This document shows positions 11,116-20,517 of a stretch of DNA of 64,000 bases, piece by piece. This DNA is from Ignavibacteria bacterium. Lineage in GTDB: Bacteria; Bacteroidota; Ignavibacteria; Kapaibacteriales; UBA4661. Made by a program: the position numbers and the translations under genes. The notes below the pieces were generated by a model that was not told the origin of the DNA, searched no databases, and worked only from the letters and a program-made list of their open reading frames with translations. Each line of letters opens with the position of its first letter. Within the stretch, counting starts at the first letter, position 1. The stretch is taken from the NCBI GenBank assembly GCA_014654705.1, contig JACVZY010000051.1:62001-126000 (forward strand), written 5' to 3'.

Positions 11116-11487
11116 ATGTCGCAGAAAGTGCTTTCATTCCGTCCGGGCGAGGTTATTATTCGTGAGGGTGAACGTGGAAAAGGATATTACATCCTCGAAT
11201 CCGGTACTATTAGTCTAAGCAAGCAAGGCGTAAAAATCTCCGAACTTGCCGGGGTAGGAACAATTTTCGGCGAGATGAGCGATATTCTCGACGAACCGCG
11301 CACCTGCACGGCAACAGCAGAGACTGCTACGCAAGTTGCATATTATCCCTTTAGCCTTGACGATATTATTCGTCAGCATCCCGAAGTGGCGAAACAGCTT
11401 GTGATTGCACTTGCTGAACGTATTTCCACAACCACCGATGCGCTGACACAAGGCAAACTGGCATTCCTCGAACTCACACGCAAGTAA
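11116..11487 (+). CDS. Stand-alone cyclic-nucleotide-binding-domain protein, copy 1
   Basis: A 123-residue protein that is almost entirely one CAP_ED/cNMP-binding domain. It has a jelly-roll with the signature GTIFGEMSDIL and then PRTCT, where Glu and Arg correspond to the ligand-contacting residues of CAP-type domains. No DNA-binding or effector domain is present, so it probably works through a partner. The start is supported by AGGAG upstream (TCAGGAGAACAGTTAATG). The next gene encodes a protein of identical length with obvious sequence similarity, so the two look like a tandem duplication. Ligand and role are unknown. Confidence 0.85.
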   Translation: MSQKVLSFRPGEVIIREGERGKGYYILESGTISLSKQGVKISELAGVGTIFGEMSDILDEPRTCTATAETATQVAYYPFSLDDIIRQHPEVAKQLVIALAERISTTTDALTQGKLAFLELTRK

Positions 11488-11581: not shown

Positions 11582-11953
11582 ATGAGTAAATCTCTATCTT
11601 TCAAGCCGGGCGACATCATTATGCGCGAAGGCGACCGCGGCGGTGACGGTTTTTACATTCTTGAAAGCGGTAGCTTTGAGGTTATCAAGCAAGGTGTCAA
11701 AATCCGCGAAGTGATTATTGCCGGTACTATTTTTGGCGAAATGTCCGATATTTTGGGACAAGCCCGCTCCTGCACGATTGTTGCGAAAACGCCTTGTACC
11801 GTTACGCACATCACGCAAGGACTGGACGAAGTGATTCGTGCTTATCCGGACACGGCAAAAGAACTTATTACCTCACTTGCCCGCCGTCTTTCCAGCACGA
11901 CGAATCAGTTTACCCAAACGCAGTTCCTTATATGGAAGCACAGCCAAGATTAA
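11582..11953 (+). CDS. Stand-alone cyclic-nucleotide-binding-domain protein, copy 2
   Basis: Also 123 residues and clearly paralogous to the preceding gene. Shared blocks are YILESGS/T, KQGVKI, TIFGEMSDIL and the PR/AR-x-CT ligand-site region. Copy 2 has ARSCT in place of PRTCT. The start is supported by GAAGGAG upstream. The 94-base gap between the copies holds no terminator that I can see, so they may be co-transcribed. A strong terminator follows. No output domain is present, and a switch or scaffold role is only inference. Confidence 0.85.
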   Translation: MSKSLSFKPGDIIMREGDRGGDGFYILESGSFEVIKQGVKIREVIIAGTIFGEMSDILGQARSCTIVAKTPCTVTHITQGLDEVIRAYPDTAKELITSLARRLSSTTNQFTQTQFLIWKHSQD

Positions 11954-11980: not shown

Positions 11981-12019
11981 AAATGCCCGCATAAATTTTT
12001 ATGCAGGGCATTTTTTTTT
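11981..12019 (+). terminator. Rho-independent terminator before the SUF cluster
   Basis: A stem of about 15 bp with one bulge (left arm 11981-11995, right arm 11998-12013) is followed by a T run to 12019. It isolates the cyclic-nucleotide-binding pair from the rrf2/SUF transcript. Confidence 0.9.
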
Positions 12020-12095
12020 ACTCGCAAGGATGCCACTCTTGAATCACGACAAAAAAAGTCGTATATTGCAAGTCAAAGTACCACAGCCGTTCATT

Positions 12096-12114
12096 GTGTA
12101 TAAACCTTATACAC
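12096..12114. promoter_or_regulatory. Perfect palindrome upstream of rrf2, putative Rrf2 operator
   Basis: GTGTATAA (12096-12103), a three-base spacer ACC, then TTATACAC (12107-12114) form a perfect 8-3-8 inverted repeat. It ends 30 bases before the rrf2 ATG, where a promoter core would lie. Rrf2/IscR-type dimers bind such sites, so autoregulation of the SUF cluster is a reasonable inference. I found no second copy by eye. Confidence 0.6.
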
Positions 12115-12144
12115 TGAGTACGGATTTCCTTCGTCTTATACGCC

Positions 12145-12609
12145 ATGCTACGACTCTCAAAAAAATCGGAATATGCGCTCATTGCATTGCAGTACATCGC
12201 TTCGCATAAGGGGCGCATTGTCTCGGCGAAGGAAATTGCGGAACATTATGGCATTTCGTTTGAATTTGTCGCCAAAACGCTACAAGCGCTCATGCGGCAG
12301 AAATTTATTATTTCGCAGCAGGGTGCATCAGGCGGATACGAGTTATTACGTCACCCCTCTGAAATTTCTGTAGCGCAGGTCATAGAAGCCGTCGAAGGCA
12401 AGACACAGATTGTAGAATGCTGCGGTGACCATGGCTCGAAGGATTGTTCTATGCAAAGCCGCTGCACTATCAAAACGCCAATGAGCATCCTGCAACGCCG
12501 CATAGACGAAGTGCTTTCTTCCATGACGATTCAGCAAATGGCATTTCCCGAAACAGAGTGCTACTTTACCATTCAAAGCGTATATGCGACCAATGGTATT
12601 ATCAATTAA
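12145..12609 (+). CDS. Rrf2-family Fe-S-type transcription regulator of the SUF cluster
   Basis: 154-residue Rrf2 protein with a winged helix-turn-helix (about 1-65) opening with LRLSKKSEYAL. A cysteine cluster of C92, C93, C101 and C107 corresponds to the iron-sulfur ligands of IscR/NsrR-type proteins. Its position first in the SUF cluster, 43 bases before sufA, suggests it senses Fe-S status or oxidative stress and controls the operon, like SufR or IscR. A perfect palindrome lies upstream. The exact subtype cannot be settled from sequence alone, so no gene symbol is given. Confidence 0.9.
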   Translation: MLRLSKKSEYALIALQYIASHKGRIVSAKEIAEHYGISFEFVAKTLQALMRQKFIISQQGASGGYELLRHPSEISVAQVIEAVEGKTQIVECCGDHGSKDCSMQSRCTIKTPMSILQRRIDEVLSSMTIQQMAFPETECYFTIQSVYATNGIIN

Positions 12610-12652: not shown

Positions 12653-13027
12653 ATGGTTGAAACTATTGCTACCGGAATTGTCGGCACTACTGCTGACGAT
12701 GACATTAAAATCACTGCTCGCGCTATCAGCGAAATTAACAAAATTAAAGAGCAAAATAGTATTCCTGCTACTTACGGATTGCGCGTAGGCGTTAAGGGCG
12801 GCGGTTGCTCAGGCTTGTCTTACACGCTGGGCTTTGATGCCGAGTCACGCGAAAGCGATAAAATTCTGCCTATGGGCGATGTCAATATCTTTGTTGACAA
12901 AAAAAGCCTCTTCTACCTCATGGGCGTTGAACTGGATTTCACCGATGGCTTGAATGGGCGCGGATTCACGTTCAATAATCCCAATGCAACCAAAACCTGT
13001 GGCTGCGGTTCGTCCTTTGGCGTGTAA
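12653..13027 (+). CDS. sufA: A-type iron-sulfur carrier SufA/IscA
   Basis: HesB/IscA/SufA family protein that receives and hands on Fe-S clusters. The three ligand cysteines are C52 in GGGCSGL and C116 and C118 in the C-terminal CGCGSSF. At 124 residues, the N-terminal 18 or so form a short non-conserved extension. It follows rrf2, and only two bases separate it from the DUF4177 gene. ErpA or IscA identity is equally possible by sequence. SufA is chosen from the operon context. Confidence 0.92.
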   Translation: MVETIATGIVGTTADDDIKITARAISEINKIKEQNSIPATYGLRVGVKGGGCSGLSYTLGFDAESRESDKILPMGDVNIFVDKKSLFYLMGVELDFTDGLNGRGFTFNNPNATKTCGCGSSFGV

Positions 13028-13253: not shown

Positions 13254-13491
13254 ATGGATGAGCAAGAGTTTGAACGGCAGCAAGAATTTGAATACAAGTT
13301 TGTGCGTCTTAAAGGCTCCTTCTTTGGTTCAGTGAAGGGACCCCGAACAAGAGTACCAAGATGTTATCCATGAACACGCAAAAAAAGGCTGGCGCTTGGT
13401 GCAGATTTTTTCTCCCGGCACAGGCGCTTATGGTACTGCTACATACTACGAAATCGTCCTTGAGCGCTCAATACACAAGAAAACACTATGA
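13254..13491 (+). pseudogene. Frameshifted second DUF4177 gene
   Basis: From the ATG at 13254 the frame reads an N-terminal DUF4177 strand (FEYKFVRL) and then stops at 13371-13373. Removing one C from the CCCC run at 13341-13344 restores a continuous protein. It contains EYQDVIHEHAKKGWRLVQIF and TYYEIVLERS and ends at TGA 13489-13491. The repaired protein of about 78 residues is clearly paralogous to the gene at 13030. The restored stop overlaps the start of the DUF29 gene as ATGA, which indicates the downstream frame was the native one. It may be a genuine pseudogene, a sequencing error or, less likely, a programmed frameshift. Confidence 0.8.
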
Positions 13492-13937
13492 CATCGCAGC
13501 GTGACTGGCATGAACTCGTCTTTTCTTCGCATTACCTGACTGCATCAGCTATTCATTCGGAATTGCAAGATGGTAATGTGGAAGCGGCTATGCTCGGTAC
13601 GGCTGAACTCATGGAATCTATGACCAAAATTGACCGCCGGGCAGTGAAAAGCCATTTGGTGATACTGATGATGCACATTATCAAATGGAAAACTCAAGAA
13701 CACCAACGCTCGCGCTCTTGGACGCGCACTATTCGTAATGCCCGCCGCGAAATCAGTGAAATTCAAGAATCCACGCCAAGCATTACCAATGAAATTATTC
13801 GCGGCTATTGGGACAAAGCTTTCGCCGAAGCCCGCGCCGATGCAGAGGACGAAATGGAACAAAGAACCAATGTCGAACATCTTACATGGCAAGAAGTTTT
13901 CGACGAAGAGTATGTGCTGCCTTTCCCCACACCATAA
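13488..13937 (+). CDS. DUF29 family protein
   Basis: 149-residue, highly charged, mostly helical protein without signal or membrane segment. It matches DUF29: an ELMESMTKIDRRAVKSHL block, HIIKWKTQ, RSRSWTRTIRNARREI and an acidic C-terminus ending near LPFP. DUF29 proteins occur in many cyanobacteria and proteobacteria and have no established function. The start overlaps the end of the frameshifted DUF4177 gene (ATGA), and sufB follows 60 bases later, so it is embedded in the SUF transcript. A cytoplasmic location is inferred. Confidence 0.82.
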   Translation: MTSQRDWHELVFSSHYLTASAIHSELQDGNVEAAMLGTAELMESMTKIDRRAVKSHLVILMMHIIKWKTQEHQRSRSWTRTIRNARREISEIQESTPSITNEIIRGYWDKAFAEARADAEDEMEQRTNVEHLTWQEVFDEEYVLPFPTP

Positions 13938-13997: not shown

Positions 13998-15470
13998 ATG
14001 GCTAAAGTAGAACAACAGGACATTTTGGACGAGGTAGTTTCCAGTGAGTACAAATACGGCTTCGTGACCGACATTGAGCAAGAAATTGCTCCTATCGGCT
14101 TGAATGAAGACGTCGTGCGTATGATTTCAGCAAAGAAAAACGAGCCGGAATGGATGCTGGAATGGCGCTTGAAAGCGTATCGCCATTGGCTCACGATGAA
14201 AGAACCACAATGGCAAAACGTGACCTTCCCGCAGATTGATTACCAATCAGTCAGCTATTATGCGGCTCCCAAGCAATCTGCAAAACCCAAAAGTCTCGAC
14301 GAAATTGACCCCGAACTCCGTCGCACACTGGACAAACTCGGCATCTCGCTCCAAGAGCAAGAACGTATCACGGGCGTACACGACGGCTTGACGGGCGGTA
14401 TCGCGGTTGATTTTGTGATGGATAGCGTATCGGTGGCTACATCCTTCAAAGAAAAACTTGCCTCGCTTGGCATTATCTTTTGTTCTATCAGCGAAGCAAT
14501 TCAAGAGCATCCTGACTTGGTGAAGCAATACATCGGCTCGGTTGTGCCGCCCAATGACAATTATTTTGCTGCACTCAATTCTGCAGTCTTTTCCGACGGT
14601 TCATTTTGCTACATCCCCAAGGGTACGCGCTGCCCGATGGAGCTTTCTACCTACTTCCGTATCAATGCCGAAAATACGGGGCAGTTCGAGCGGACGTTGC
14701 TTATTGCGGATGAAGGTGCGTATGTCAGTTACCTCGAAGGCTGCACAGCGCCTATGCGTGATGAGAATCAGCTTCATGCAGCGGTGGTGGAACTTATCGC
14801 AATGGACAACGCAGAAATCAAGTATTCGACTGTTCAAAACTGGTATCCGGGCGATAAAGACGGCAAAGGTGGTATCTACAACTTCGTTACCAAGCGTGGC
14901 ACTGCATACAAACACGCGAAAATTTCGTGGACGCAGGTAGAGACTGGTTCGTCTATTACGTGGAAATATCCGAGCGTGATTCTCAAAGGCGATTATTCGG
15001 TTGGTGAATTCTACTCCGTTGCCGTTACGAACAATATGCAGCAGGCAGACACCGGCACGAAGATGCTCCACATCGGCAAAAATACGAAAAGCCGCATCGT
15101 CTCGAAGGGCATTTCGGCAGGCAAAAGCCAGAACAGCTATCGCGGACAGGTGCGTGTGGGAAAAACTGCTGACAATGCACGTAATTTCTCGCAATGCGAC
15201 TCGCTACTTATTGGTGATAAATGCGGTGCGCACACGTTCCCCTACATCGAAGTCGGCAATCCTTCCGGCACAGTGGAGCACGAAGCCACAACCTCGAAAA
15301 TCGGCGAAGACACGCTTTTTTACTTCAATCAACGCGGCATTGACACCGAACAAGCGGTGGCAATGATTGTGAACGGTTATGCGAAAGAAGTAATGAACCA
15401 ACTTCCGATGGAATTTGCCGTGGAGGCACAGAAGCTGCTTGCTATATCGCTTGAAGGCAGCGTTGGATAA
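13998..15470 (+). CDS. sufB: Fe-S cluster assembly scaffold SufB
   Basis: 490-residue scaffold subunit that with SufC and SufD builds Fe-S clusters in the cytoplasm. The C-terminal half has the family hallmarks: [17 protein letters not shown] with C409 in the position of the essential cysteine, then [16 protein letters not shown] and [10 protein letters not shown], ending LEGSVG. Length is normal. It is separated from sufC by a membrane-protein gene, whereas in most SUF operons sufB and sufC are adjacent. Confidence 0.97.
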
Positions 15471-16056: not shown

Positions 16057-16821
16057 ATGCTCACCATCACCAATCTGCAAGCCTCCGTAGAAGGCAAAGA
16101 GATTTTGAAGGGAATTAACCTCACCATTGGCAAAGGCGAAATTCACGCCATCATGGGACCCAACGGCTCGGGCAAAAGCACACTTGCCTCGGTGCTTGCC
16201 GGACGGGAAGATTACGAAATTACAGGCGGCACGGTTGTATTTCAAGGTGAAGATTTGCTCGAAATGTCGCCCGAAGCCCGCGCCCGCGAAGGTGTATTTT
16301 TAGCGTTTCAGTATCCGGTCGAAATTCCCGGCGTGAGCAATACCAATTTTCTCAAAGCCGCCGTCAACGAAGTCCGCAAACATCGCGGTTTAGCTCCAAT
16401 GGAGCCGAAAGCATTTCTGAACATGATGCGCGAGAAAATGGCATTAGTGGAAATGGATCAAGCAATGGTTAGCCGCTCGGTAAACGAAGGTTTTTCCGGG
16501 GGCGAGAAAAAACGCAACGAAATCTTCCAAATGGCAATGCTGGAGCCAAAACTCTCCATTTTGGACGAGACTGATTCAGGTCTGGATATTGACGCGCTCA
16601 AAATCGTTGCCAACGGCGTCAACAAGCTGCGCTCCAAAGAAACTTCTACCATAGTCATCACGCACTATCAGCGTTTGCTGGATTACATCGTACCTGACTT
16701 TGTTCATGTACTCTACAAAGGGCGTATTGTCAAGTCTGGCGGTAAAGACTTGGCGTTGGAACTGGAAGCAAAAGGTTATGATTGGATTAAAGAATTGGCT
16801 CAAGAAGAGGTGACTGCATGA
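16057..16821 (+). CDS. sufC: SufC ATPase of the SufBCD complex
   Basis: Soluble ABC-type ATPase that powers the SufBCD scaffold. Walker A is GPNGSGKST (34-42), the ABC signature is FSGGEKKR (from 146), and Walker B ends at E171 in [11 protein letters not shown], the SufC-specific form. At 254 residues it is full length. The stop overlaps the sufD start by four bases (ATGA at 16818), giving tight translational coupling. Confidence 0.97.
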
Positions 16822-18152
16822 GTGAGGTTTTGAACTTGCAAGAAAAACTGGTCAAAGAATTTGTACGGATGGAAGCTATGCTCAACGGGCAAGCACAAAC
16901 ACCCGTTCACACCATTCGCAAGCAAGCAATGGTGCGTTTTACAGAACTTGGCTTCCCGACTATTCGCCATGAGGAGTGGAAGTACACGAACATCATGCCT
17001 GTTGTCAAAAACGACTATGCGTTCAACAACCACACTACCTCAAGCGTTACGAAGTCAGATATTGCGTCTTTTTTACTGCCTGATGTGGAAGCAAACGTAT
17101 TGGTCTTTGTGAATGGCTCTTTTGCGGCTGACCTTTCTACGATTATTTCCCAGAAAGGCGTAGAAGTGATGCCGCTTGCGGAGGCTTTTAAGAAAAAAAC
17201 AACCGTCGTTGAAAAGCACTTTGCCAAATATGCCCTGTGGCAGAATGACGCGATGCTTGCGCTGAATACTGCATTTGCTCTGAACGGCGCATATATTGAG
17301 ATTGCAAGCGGCGCAGTCATAGAAGAGCCTTTTCATCTTCTATTCGTCAACGATTCCCGTTCGCAAAGCACATTTGCTCCGGCACGAAATCTTGTGGTGG
17401 TGGGTACAAATGCCGAAGTAACTATCGTGGAAAGCAATCACACACTGGTTTCCGGCGAAAATTACGGCTTTACCAATGTCGTCAGTGAGGTTGTCCTTGC
17501 CGATAATGCACGTCTCCATCATTACAAAGTTCAGCAAGATGTAGAGCAGTCATATTTTGTCGGTGCTCTTCACGCAGAGCAGGAAGCGACCAGCGTTTTG
17601 AATACGGTCGTCATTACGCTTTCCGGCGGTATCGTTCGCAATAATCTTAGTGCCGTGCTTGCCGGAAAGGGTGCAGATACGCACTTTTATGGTTTATATT
17701 TGGTTAATGGCAAAACGCTTGTCGATAATCACACGCTTGCCGACCACGCCGTAGCTCATTGCACCAGCAACGAACTCTACAAAGGCATTATGGACGACCG
17801 CTCGACGGGTGTTTTTAATGGTAAAATTATGGTTCGCCCCGATGCACAAAAAACATTGGCGTACCAATCAAATCGTAATATTCTCATGTCGCCGAATGCA
17901 ACGGTGAACACAAAGCCGCAGTTGGAAATTTTTGCCGACGACGTGAAATGCAGTCATGGCTGTACATCGGGGCAACTTGACGACGAGTCGGTCTTTTACC
18001 TTCGCGCACGAGGACTGGACAAAGAGCAAGCGCGGGCGCTTCTTCTGTACGCTTTTGCAGGTGAGATTACCGAAAAAATCCAGTTGGGGACACTCCGTGA
18101 GCGCTTGGAGTCTATTATTGCAGAGCGTCTGCATCAAGAATTGGTATCATAA
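16818..18152 (+). CDS. sufD: SufD subunit of the SufBCD complex
   Basis: 444-residue paralog of SufB that forms the SufBC2D complex and helps acquire iron. Hallmarks are the N-terminal helical part with HEEWKYTN, the beta-helix core, and the C-terminal stretch containing [33 protein letters not shown] and [10 protein letters not shown]. It overlaps sufC by four bases. A 265-base gap follows before the next gene. Confidence 0.95.
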
Positions 18153-19269: not shown

Positions 19270-20517
19270 ATGAATACCGCACCATCACTGGATTTTGACG
19301 TACAAACGCTCCGTGCTGATTTCCCGATTCTCTCCGAACGGGTTCACGGCAAGCCGCTTGTGTATTTGGATAATGGCAACACCTCGCAAAAGCCGCGTCA
19401 GGTCATCGAAACGATAGACCACTATTACCGCGCCATGAATAGCAATGTGCATCGTGGAAATCATTTCCTGAGCCAACAAGCAACAACCGCTCTGGAGGCA
19501 GCACGACGAACAACACAAGCGTTTATCAATGCTGCGGAAGACCGTGAAATTATTTTTGTGCGCGGAACGACCGAGGCTATCAATCTTGTTGCAACATCCT
19601 TCGGTGATGGCATCCAAAAAGGTGATGAAATCCTCATTTCCGGCATGGAGCATCATTCAAATATCGTTCCATGGCAAATGCTGTGCGCCCGCAAAGGTGC
19701 AGAGTTGCGTGTTGTGCCGATAGATGACAACGGTGAACTCATCATGGAAGAATATGAAAATTTACTTTCCGACCGCACGAAAATCGTTGCCATAACGCAT
19801 ATTTCCAACACATTGGGTACCGTCAATCCGGTGAAGCGTATTATTGAGCTTGCACATGAGCACGGCGCCGTGGTGATCGTGGACGGGGCGCAATCCGTGC
19901 CACACACAAGTGTGGACGTGCAGGCACTGGACGCAGATTTCTACGTTTTTTCGGGTCATAAAATCTTTGCTCCCACAGGAATCGGCGTTCTCTACGGCAA
20001 AGCGGCACTTCTTGAAACCATGCCGCCTTATCATGGTGGCGGCGCGATGATTAGCTCTGTTACCTTTGAAAAAACAACCTATAACGATATTCCGTTTAAG
20101 TTTGAAGCCGGAACGCCGCACGTGGAAGGTATTATCGGTCTTGGTGCGGCATTGGAATATGTGCGCGGGGTTGGCTTAGATGCTATTGCCGAGTATGAAC
20201 AGGAGCTTTTGAATTATGGAACAGAGGCGCTTCTGGGTATTGATGGGCTTCGCATCATCGGTACTGCCCGCGAAAAGGCTAGCGTCATTTCCTTCATGTT
20301 GCGGAATCCCGATGGCGATATTCATCCGCACGACGTGGGTACGATACTCGACAACGACGGCATAGCAATTCGCACCGGGCATCATTGCACGCAACCACTC
20401 ATGAAGCGCTTTGGCGTTCCGGCGACGTGTCGGGCGTCGTTTGCTTTTTACAATACCAAAGACGAAATTGATGTCTTGGTACACTCGCTCAGAAAAGTAC
20501 AGAAGATGTTTGCTTAA
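19270..20517 (+). CDS. sufS: SufS-type cysteine desulfurase
   Basis: PLP enzyme that takes sulfur from cysteine for Fe-S assembly. The Schiff-base lysine is K231 in SGHKIFAPTG. The catalytic cysteine is C373 in RTGHHCTQP, the group II (SufS/CsdA) form. The 415-residue length is normal. No sufE or sufU sulfur-transfer partner is present in the window, so the acceptor is encoded elsewhere. It lies 63 bases after the exported-protein gene and ends the SUF cluster. Confidence 0.96.
   Translation: MNTAPSLDFDVQTLRADFPILSERVHGKPLVYLDNGNTSQKPRQVIETIDHYYRAMNSNVHRGNHFLSQQATTALEAARRTTQAFINAAEDREIIFVRGTTEAINLVATSFGDGIQKGDEILISGMEHHSNIVPWQMLCARKGAELRVVPIDDNGELIMEEYENLLSDRTKIVAITHISNTLGTVNPVKRIIELAHEHGAVVIVDGAQSVPHTSVDVQALDADFYVFSGHKIFAPTGIGVLYGKAALLETMPPYHGGGAMISSVTFEKTTYNDIPFKFEAGTPHVEGIIGLGAALEYVRGVGLDAIAEYEQELLNYGTEALLGIDGLRIIGTAREKASVISFMLRNPDGDIHPHDVGTILDNDGIAIRTGHHCTQPLMKRFGVPATCRASFAFYNTKDEIDVLVHSLRKVQKMFA

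Follow-up and report, generated by a model that had tools for sequence, protein, structure and literature searches.

A conserved GAC-N7-GTC dyad in the rrf2-suf promoter as the predicted operator of an Rrf2-family regulator in an Ignavibacteria bacterium and its relatives

In Myxococcus xanthus, holo-RisR, a member of subgroup IS6 of the Rrf2 family, footprints a T[t/g]GAC-N7-GTCC[t/a] sequence over the -35 and -10 elements of suf and represses transcription, and mutation of one half-site increases the expression of isc and suf reporters 3- and 4-fold (PMC9973013). The accessible portions of that report also place Chlorobi within subgroup IS6, give arginine as residue 59 of both RisR and IscR, and name Ser40, Glu43 and Gln44 as the base-reading residues of IscR (PMC9973013). 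For Escherichia coli IscR, the accessible part of a second report describes a type 1 consensus with the core GACT-RWWWY-AGTC, which contains GAC-N7-GTC (PMC3899308). A literature search, conducted outside most subscription journals, covered Rrf2 in Chlorobi, Kapabacteria and Bacteroidetes and returned no report on the operator of the bacterial group examined here.

We analyzed a 64,000-nt stretch of DNA from an Ignavibacteria bacterium (the window, whose numbering is used throughout), in which an rrf2 gene (12145–12609, plus strand) is the first gene of a suf cluster. Downstream on the same strand lie genes for a SufA/ErpA-like Fe-S carrier (12653–13027), sufB (13998–15470), sufC (16057–16821), sufD (16818–18152) and sufS (19270–20517), with a gene for a DUF29 protein (13488–13937) between the SufA-like gene and sufB. 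The initial annotation had described the first gene product as an Rrf2 protein with an Fe-S cysteine set, and this holds: the 154-aa protein scores 120.1 bits against the Rrf2 family model PF02082 (gathering score 30) and carries cysteines at positions 92, 93, 101 and 107. All 60 aligned orthologues retain Cys92, Cys101, Cys107 and Lys44. The wing motif Gx2GGx2L is present as GASGGYEL; residue 59, the place of the wing arginine, is Gln here, and among the 60 orthologues it is Lys in three and Arg in none. Two adjacent genes on the other side of rrf2 (11116–11487 and 11582–11953) encode cyclic-nucleotide-binding-like single-domain proteins of 123 aa each, alike in sequence, in which no DNA-binding domain was detected.

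We consider it highly probable that the operator of this protein is a dyad, O1, seated between the -35 and -10 elements of the rrf2-suf promoter and serving Fe-S-cluster-dependent repression, and that a perfect palindrome closer to the gene is a chance repeat. In the upstream sequences of rrf2, a shared GAC-N7-GTC precedes a -10-like GTATATT. In the window this dyad is ACGAC-A7-GTCGT at 12046–12062 (core 12048–12060), and together with the flanking -10 element it reads CACGACAAAAAAAGTCGTATATTG. A promoter scan blind to the motif placed TTGAAT at 12039–12044 and TATATT at 12062–12067 on the plus strand, 17 apart, so that O1 fills the promoter spacer; the -35 element is a consensus match only, the -10 element is conserved together with O1, and the scan overall yielded no more sites than it did in shuffled sequence. 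Judged from the position of the -10 element, the transcription start would fall near 12074. At about 11986–12020, separating this promoter from the upstream gene, there is a terminator-like hairpin with a T run, which the scan calls on the minus strand and which, by eye, has a T run on the plus-strand side as well; rrf2-suf is therefore probably its own unit.

The palindrome, GTGTATAAACCTTATACAC, lies about 50 bases downstream of O1 at 12096–12114. The initial annotation had reported it as a perfect inverted repeat of 8-3-8 geometry, 30 bases ahead of the rrf2 gene, and the sequence agrees: two perfect 8-base arms flank a 3-base spacer (GTGTATAA-ACC-TTATACAC), with the 3' end 30 bases before the ATG at 12145. 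The accompanying claim that such a repeat is unlikely by chance stands in its narrow form, since in the 191-bp gap before rrf2, a test place picked after the palindrome had been noticed, the first-order Markov chance of an 8-3-8 repeat with a loop of exactly 3 is about 0.3%. It does not stand more broadly: any perfect arm of at least 8 with a loop of 0–10 has a chance of about 5% in the same gap, and across the window 11 such repeats occur versus 10.85 expected (sd 4.5, from 20 first-order Markov copies of the window). The palindrome is mildly unusual at its place and ordinary for the window.

Conservation upstream of orthologous rrf2 genes, on which the annotation itself had staked its proposal of an Rrf2 operator, is lacking. 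We compared 65 upstream rows (two from the window's own genome and 63 others from 59 distinct sources, four rows being second copies from genomes already represented; paralogues and G039, whose E values exceeded 1e-24, were left aside), and the palindrome was absent from all 63 others, the best match having 4 mismatches of 16. At up to one mismatch it occurs in one of eight genus genomes, the window's own, and in none of the seven others; at up to three mismatches the own genome contains 17 matches versus 16 for a control read backward. In a sister genome, whose Rrf2 protein is 87% identical, the position reads GTTCATTCACCTTTACAC, yet the DNA-reading helix, GISFEFVAKTLQ, is identical in the two proteins. 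The palindrome has nothing in common with GAC-N7-GTC, and it sits about 22–40 nt downstream of the predicted transcription start, which would place it in the untranslated leader. Set against these observations, the perfect arms near rrf2 and the low chance of exactly that geometry in the gap leave it very unlikely that the palindrome itself is the Rrf2 operator in this species, either newly evolved or besides O1.

We assign just as little probability to some other job for the palindrome, be it an inverted pair of DnaA-box-like sequences, a leader RNA hairpin or the site of another regulator. The arms do resemble such a pair (TTATACACA on the minus strand at 12095–12103 and TTATACACT on the plus strand), with what we take to be an exact TTATNCACA-type DnaA box at 12095, and the predicted fold contains the hairpin. 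However, four boxes of that type occur within the window, the leader fold is no better than that of shuffles (z 0.09), no Rfam family matches and the palindrome is not conserved. We thus found no support for DnaA boxes, nor for an RNA hairpin or known RNA family, as its identity. A search for two outward-placed DnaA boxes 10 apart, an arrangement different from that in the palindrome, gave no match, which carries little weight, and a 40-base stretch compared with phages showed no similarity. Most likely the palindrome is an idle chance repeat in the leader of one species; we stop short of calling this proved because of the small chance, noted above, of an exact 8-3-8 repeat in the gap.

To follow GAC-N7-GTC across relatives, we counted two forms of the site in the 250 nt preceding the head of the suf operon: a strict GAC-N7-GTC in which five or more of the 7 core bases are A/T, and a relaxed GAY-N7-RTC. 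From 61 genomes (the window's own and 60 relatives, the nearest named being Candidatus Kapaibacterium assemblies), 57 were testable; G002, G040 and G050 were cut by contig ends and G059 had no orthologue. The strict site was found in 40/57 and the relaxed site in 50/57, compared with 0.2% and 4.4% of control stretches from the same loci (n=9845) and 1.0% and 6.2% of Markov copies (n=5700), although the motif had been noticed first and was counted afterwards. Seven genomes lacked even the relaxed form (G011, G021, G028, G035, G045, G047 and G054); five of them belong to family f4, in which an imperfect site before sufB can be seen by eye. The consensus from a 34-row alignment (A1) is GACTAAAATAGTC; GAC and GTC are invariant in it because of the choice of rows, which omitted f3, f4, G009, G042 and identical or cut rows.

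The arrangement of the cluster differs in families f2, f4, f6 and f7 (L081–L104), where the order is sufB-C-D-S ... rrf2 and rrf2 is the last suf-cluster gene; this order is complete in 22 of 24 loci, G040 and G050 being the two cut by contig ends. No site stands upstream of rrf2 in these four families. Upstream of sufB it is present in 9/9 testable members of f2, 6/6 of f6, 1/1 of f7 and 1/6 of f4. The operator goes with the promoter at the operon head, not with the rrf2 gene, and since the sufB upstreams were unseen before the site was sought there, these counts are the nearest thing here to a blind prediction. Among nine more distant Rrf2 homologues (L070, L072–L075 and L077–L080) there were 0 strict upstream sites, and L070 has a relaxed GAT..GTC. 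Outside the order, 10 of 21 upstreams (20 of 30 loci plus the Acidobacteriaceae locus L039) carry a site by the same A/T rule, and in two more, L167 and L170, there is a GAC-N7-GTC whose core is richer in G+C. In relatives we also observed CGT[CT] at a distance of exactly 12 bases downstream of the dyad's GTC in 23/50 genomes (e.g., L014, L028 and L069; families f3, f5, f6, f8, f9 and f10); no offset from 0 to 11 showed it more than once. This element, near the expected transcription start there and absent from the window, may represent an additional half-site or start element.

Such conservation would also be seen if O1 were kept only as a promoter element, or were read by another regulator, with this Rrf2 protein not acting there. 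Part of it is indeed promoter conservation, the -10 element standing at a fixed distance from the dyad. But nothing in a promoter calls for a distance of exactly 7 between GAC and GTC, and the two arms read GAT..ATC together in five genomes (L062, L063, L068 and L069 of family f3, and L013). Furthermore, six homologues of family f21, whose loci showed no suf gene within the stretch examined, have no site, and the RisR site has the same form in the accessible text of its report (PMC9973013). We consider this alternative unlikely. The four f3 proteins with GAT..ATC sites have Pro-Tyr at residues 38–39, not Ser-Phe, but the fifth genome with such a site, G009, keeps Ser-Phe; this comparison of arms and helix omitted by hand two extra relaxed sites, at -201 in G049 and at -135 in G053. 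We set aside covariation of helix and operator in f3 as a test of their link, the tree offering at most three independent pairs.

To return to O1 as the operator, genome-wide searches point to a narrow specificity. Profiles built from 34 sites (R1) and from 26 sites with the window's family left out (R2) both had the rrf2 promoter as their best match in 8/8 genus genomes, with 150 candidates scored per genome. The E values for R2 were 1.6e-4 to 0.005 in seven genomes and 0.29 in G003, where the promoter was the sole match at E up to 1. In G002, which is in neither training set, the match lies at the edge of contig C362, the end of which is almost identical to the beginning of the rrf2 contig. 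The window's own genome contains one exact match to GACWRWWWWWGTCGTATATT, namely O1; with up to three mismatches there are 28, versus 31 in a backward control (both strands). No wider regulon emerged among the 150 candidates scored per genome, the second-rank R1 matches across the genus having E values of 0.004 and worse. One of these, G000:C110:18309, falls inside a gene read by eye as a chemoreceptor. Another O1-like site (L139, G005:C89:3219-3241; R1 E 0.004) precedes a 250-aa ORF by about 54 nt and is a possible second target in G005. On the simplest reading of these candidates, the regulon would be one operon.

Downstream of O1 and the palindrome, a decayed second site, O2 (GAT-TTCCTTC-GTC, 12123–12135), stands at -22 from the ATG. 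It is intact in several members of the genus, where the second site likewise lies at -22 from the rrf2 start codon, and beyond the order a site is often found at -19 to -24. When rrf2 is taken as the head, a second GAY-N7-RTC starting 13–36 nt before the start codon is found in 13/36 genomes, compared with 2.2% in the control. Helical phasing of the O1–O2 spacings was considered and discarded as unconvincing (p 0.05 on 10 hand-picked spacings). Two tandem GAC-N7-GTC operators, one within the promoter and the other immediately ahead of the rrf2 start codon, could let a repressor that serves one target or a few block both start and elongation, while the GAC to GAT change in f3 together with Ser38-Phe39 to Pro-Tyr would be a natural specificity switch inside a single repressor family; we hold this combined proposal to be speculative and rather unlikely.

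What was computed is the site, how it is conserved, where it sits in the promoter and how it moves with the operon head; from this we infer binding, a cluster and a direction of control. The Rrf2 protein carrying its Fe-S cluster would bind O1 (12046–12062) as a dimer and shut RNA polymerase out of the rrf2-suf promoter. On iron or cluster shortage, it would lose the cluster and release O1, allowing rrf2-suf to be expressed, and the weaker O2 (12123–12135) just before the start codon may strengthen repression. Autoregulation of suf by Rrf2, which the initial annotation had suggested, is thus well supported by way of the conserved dyad in the promoter, though not by way of the palindrome on which the suggestion was based. 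The eye-catching perfect repeat is probably a decoy, and the candidate for the working site was found only through comparison of relatives.

By analogy, the GAC-N7-GTC site described here is of a known kind, because the RisR site and the IscR type 1 core share the same GAC-N7-GTC. As far as the accessible portions of the two reports allow comparison (PMC9973013, PMC3899308), the IscR type 1 core GACT-RWWWY-AGTC agrees with the consensus GACTAAAATAGTC, whereas the outer bases of the site differ, and the base-reading residues Ser40, Glu43 and Gln44 of IscR are Glu40, Ala43 and Lys44 here. The protein scores 68.7 bits against the IscR model TIGR02010, far below the curated cut-off of 207.55; its best equivalog model, TIGR02944 (SUF system Fe-S cluster assembly regulator), gives 107.2 bits, and 107.1 in a second run, narrowly short of the cut-off of 110.65. 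With RisR, as described in the accessible text, the locus differs in having Gln instead of Arg59, cysteines at 92-101-107 instead of 92-102-108 (a spacing off by one), a second site, in tandem, ahead of the start codon, and no clear target beyond the suf cluster, compared with isc and suf in M. xanthus. It resembles RisR in the core and spacing of the site, its place over the suf -35 and -10 elements (GAC-N7-GTC at 12048–12060, between TTGAAT and TATATT), the three cysteines, and the presence of the rrf2 gene in the suf cluster. The dyad is a candidate operator for the regulator of suf throughout one Bacteroidota order, the relatives of Candidatus Kapaibacterium, and would extend the RisR-type site, footprinted in one species (PMC9973013), to a far wider group.
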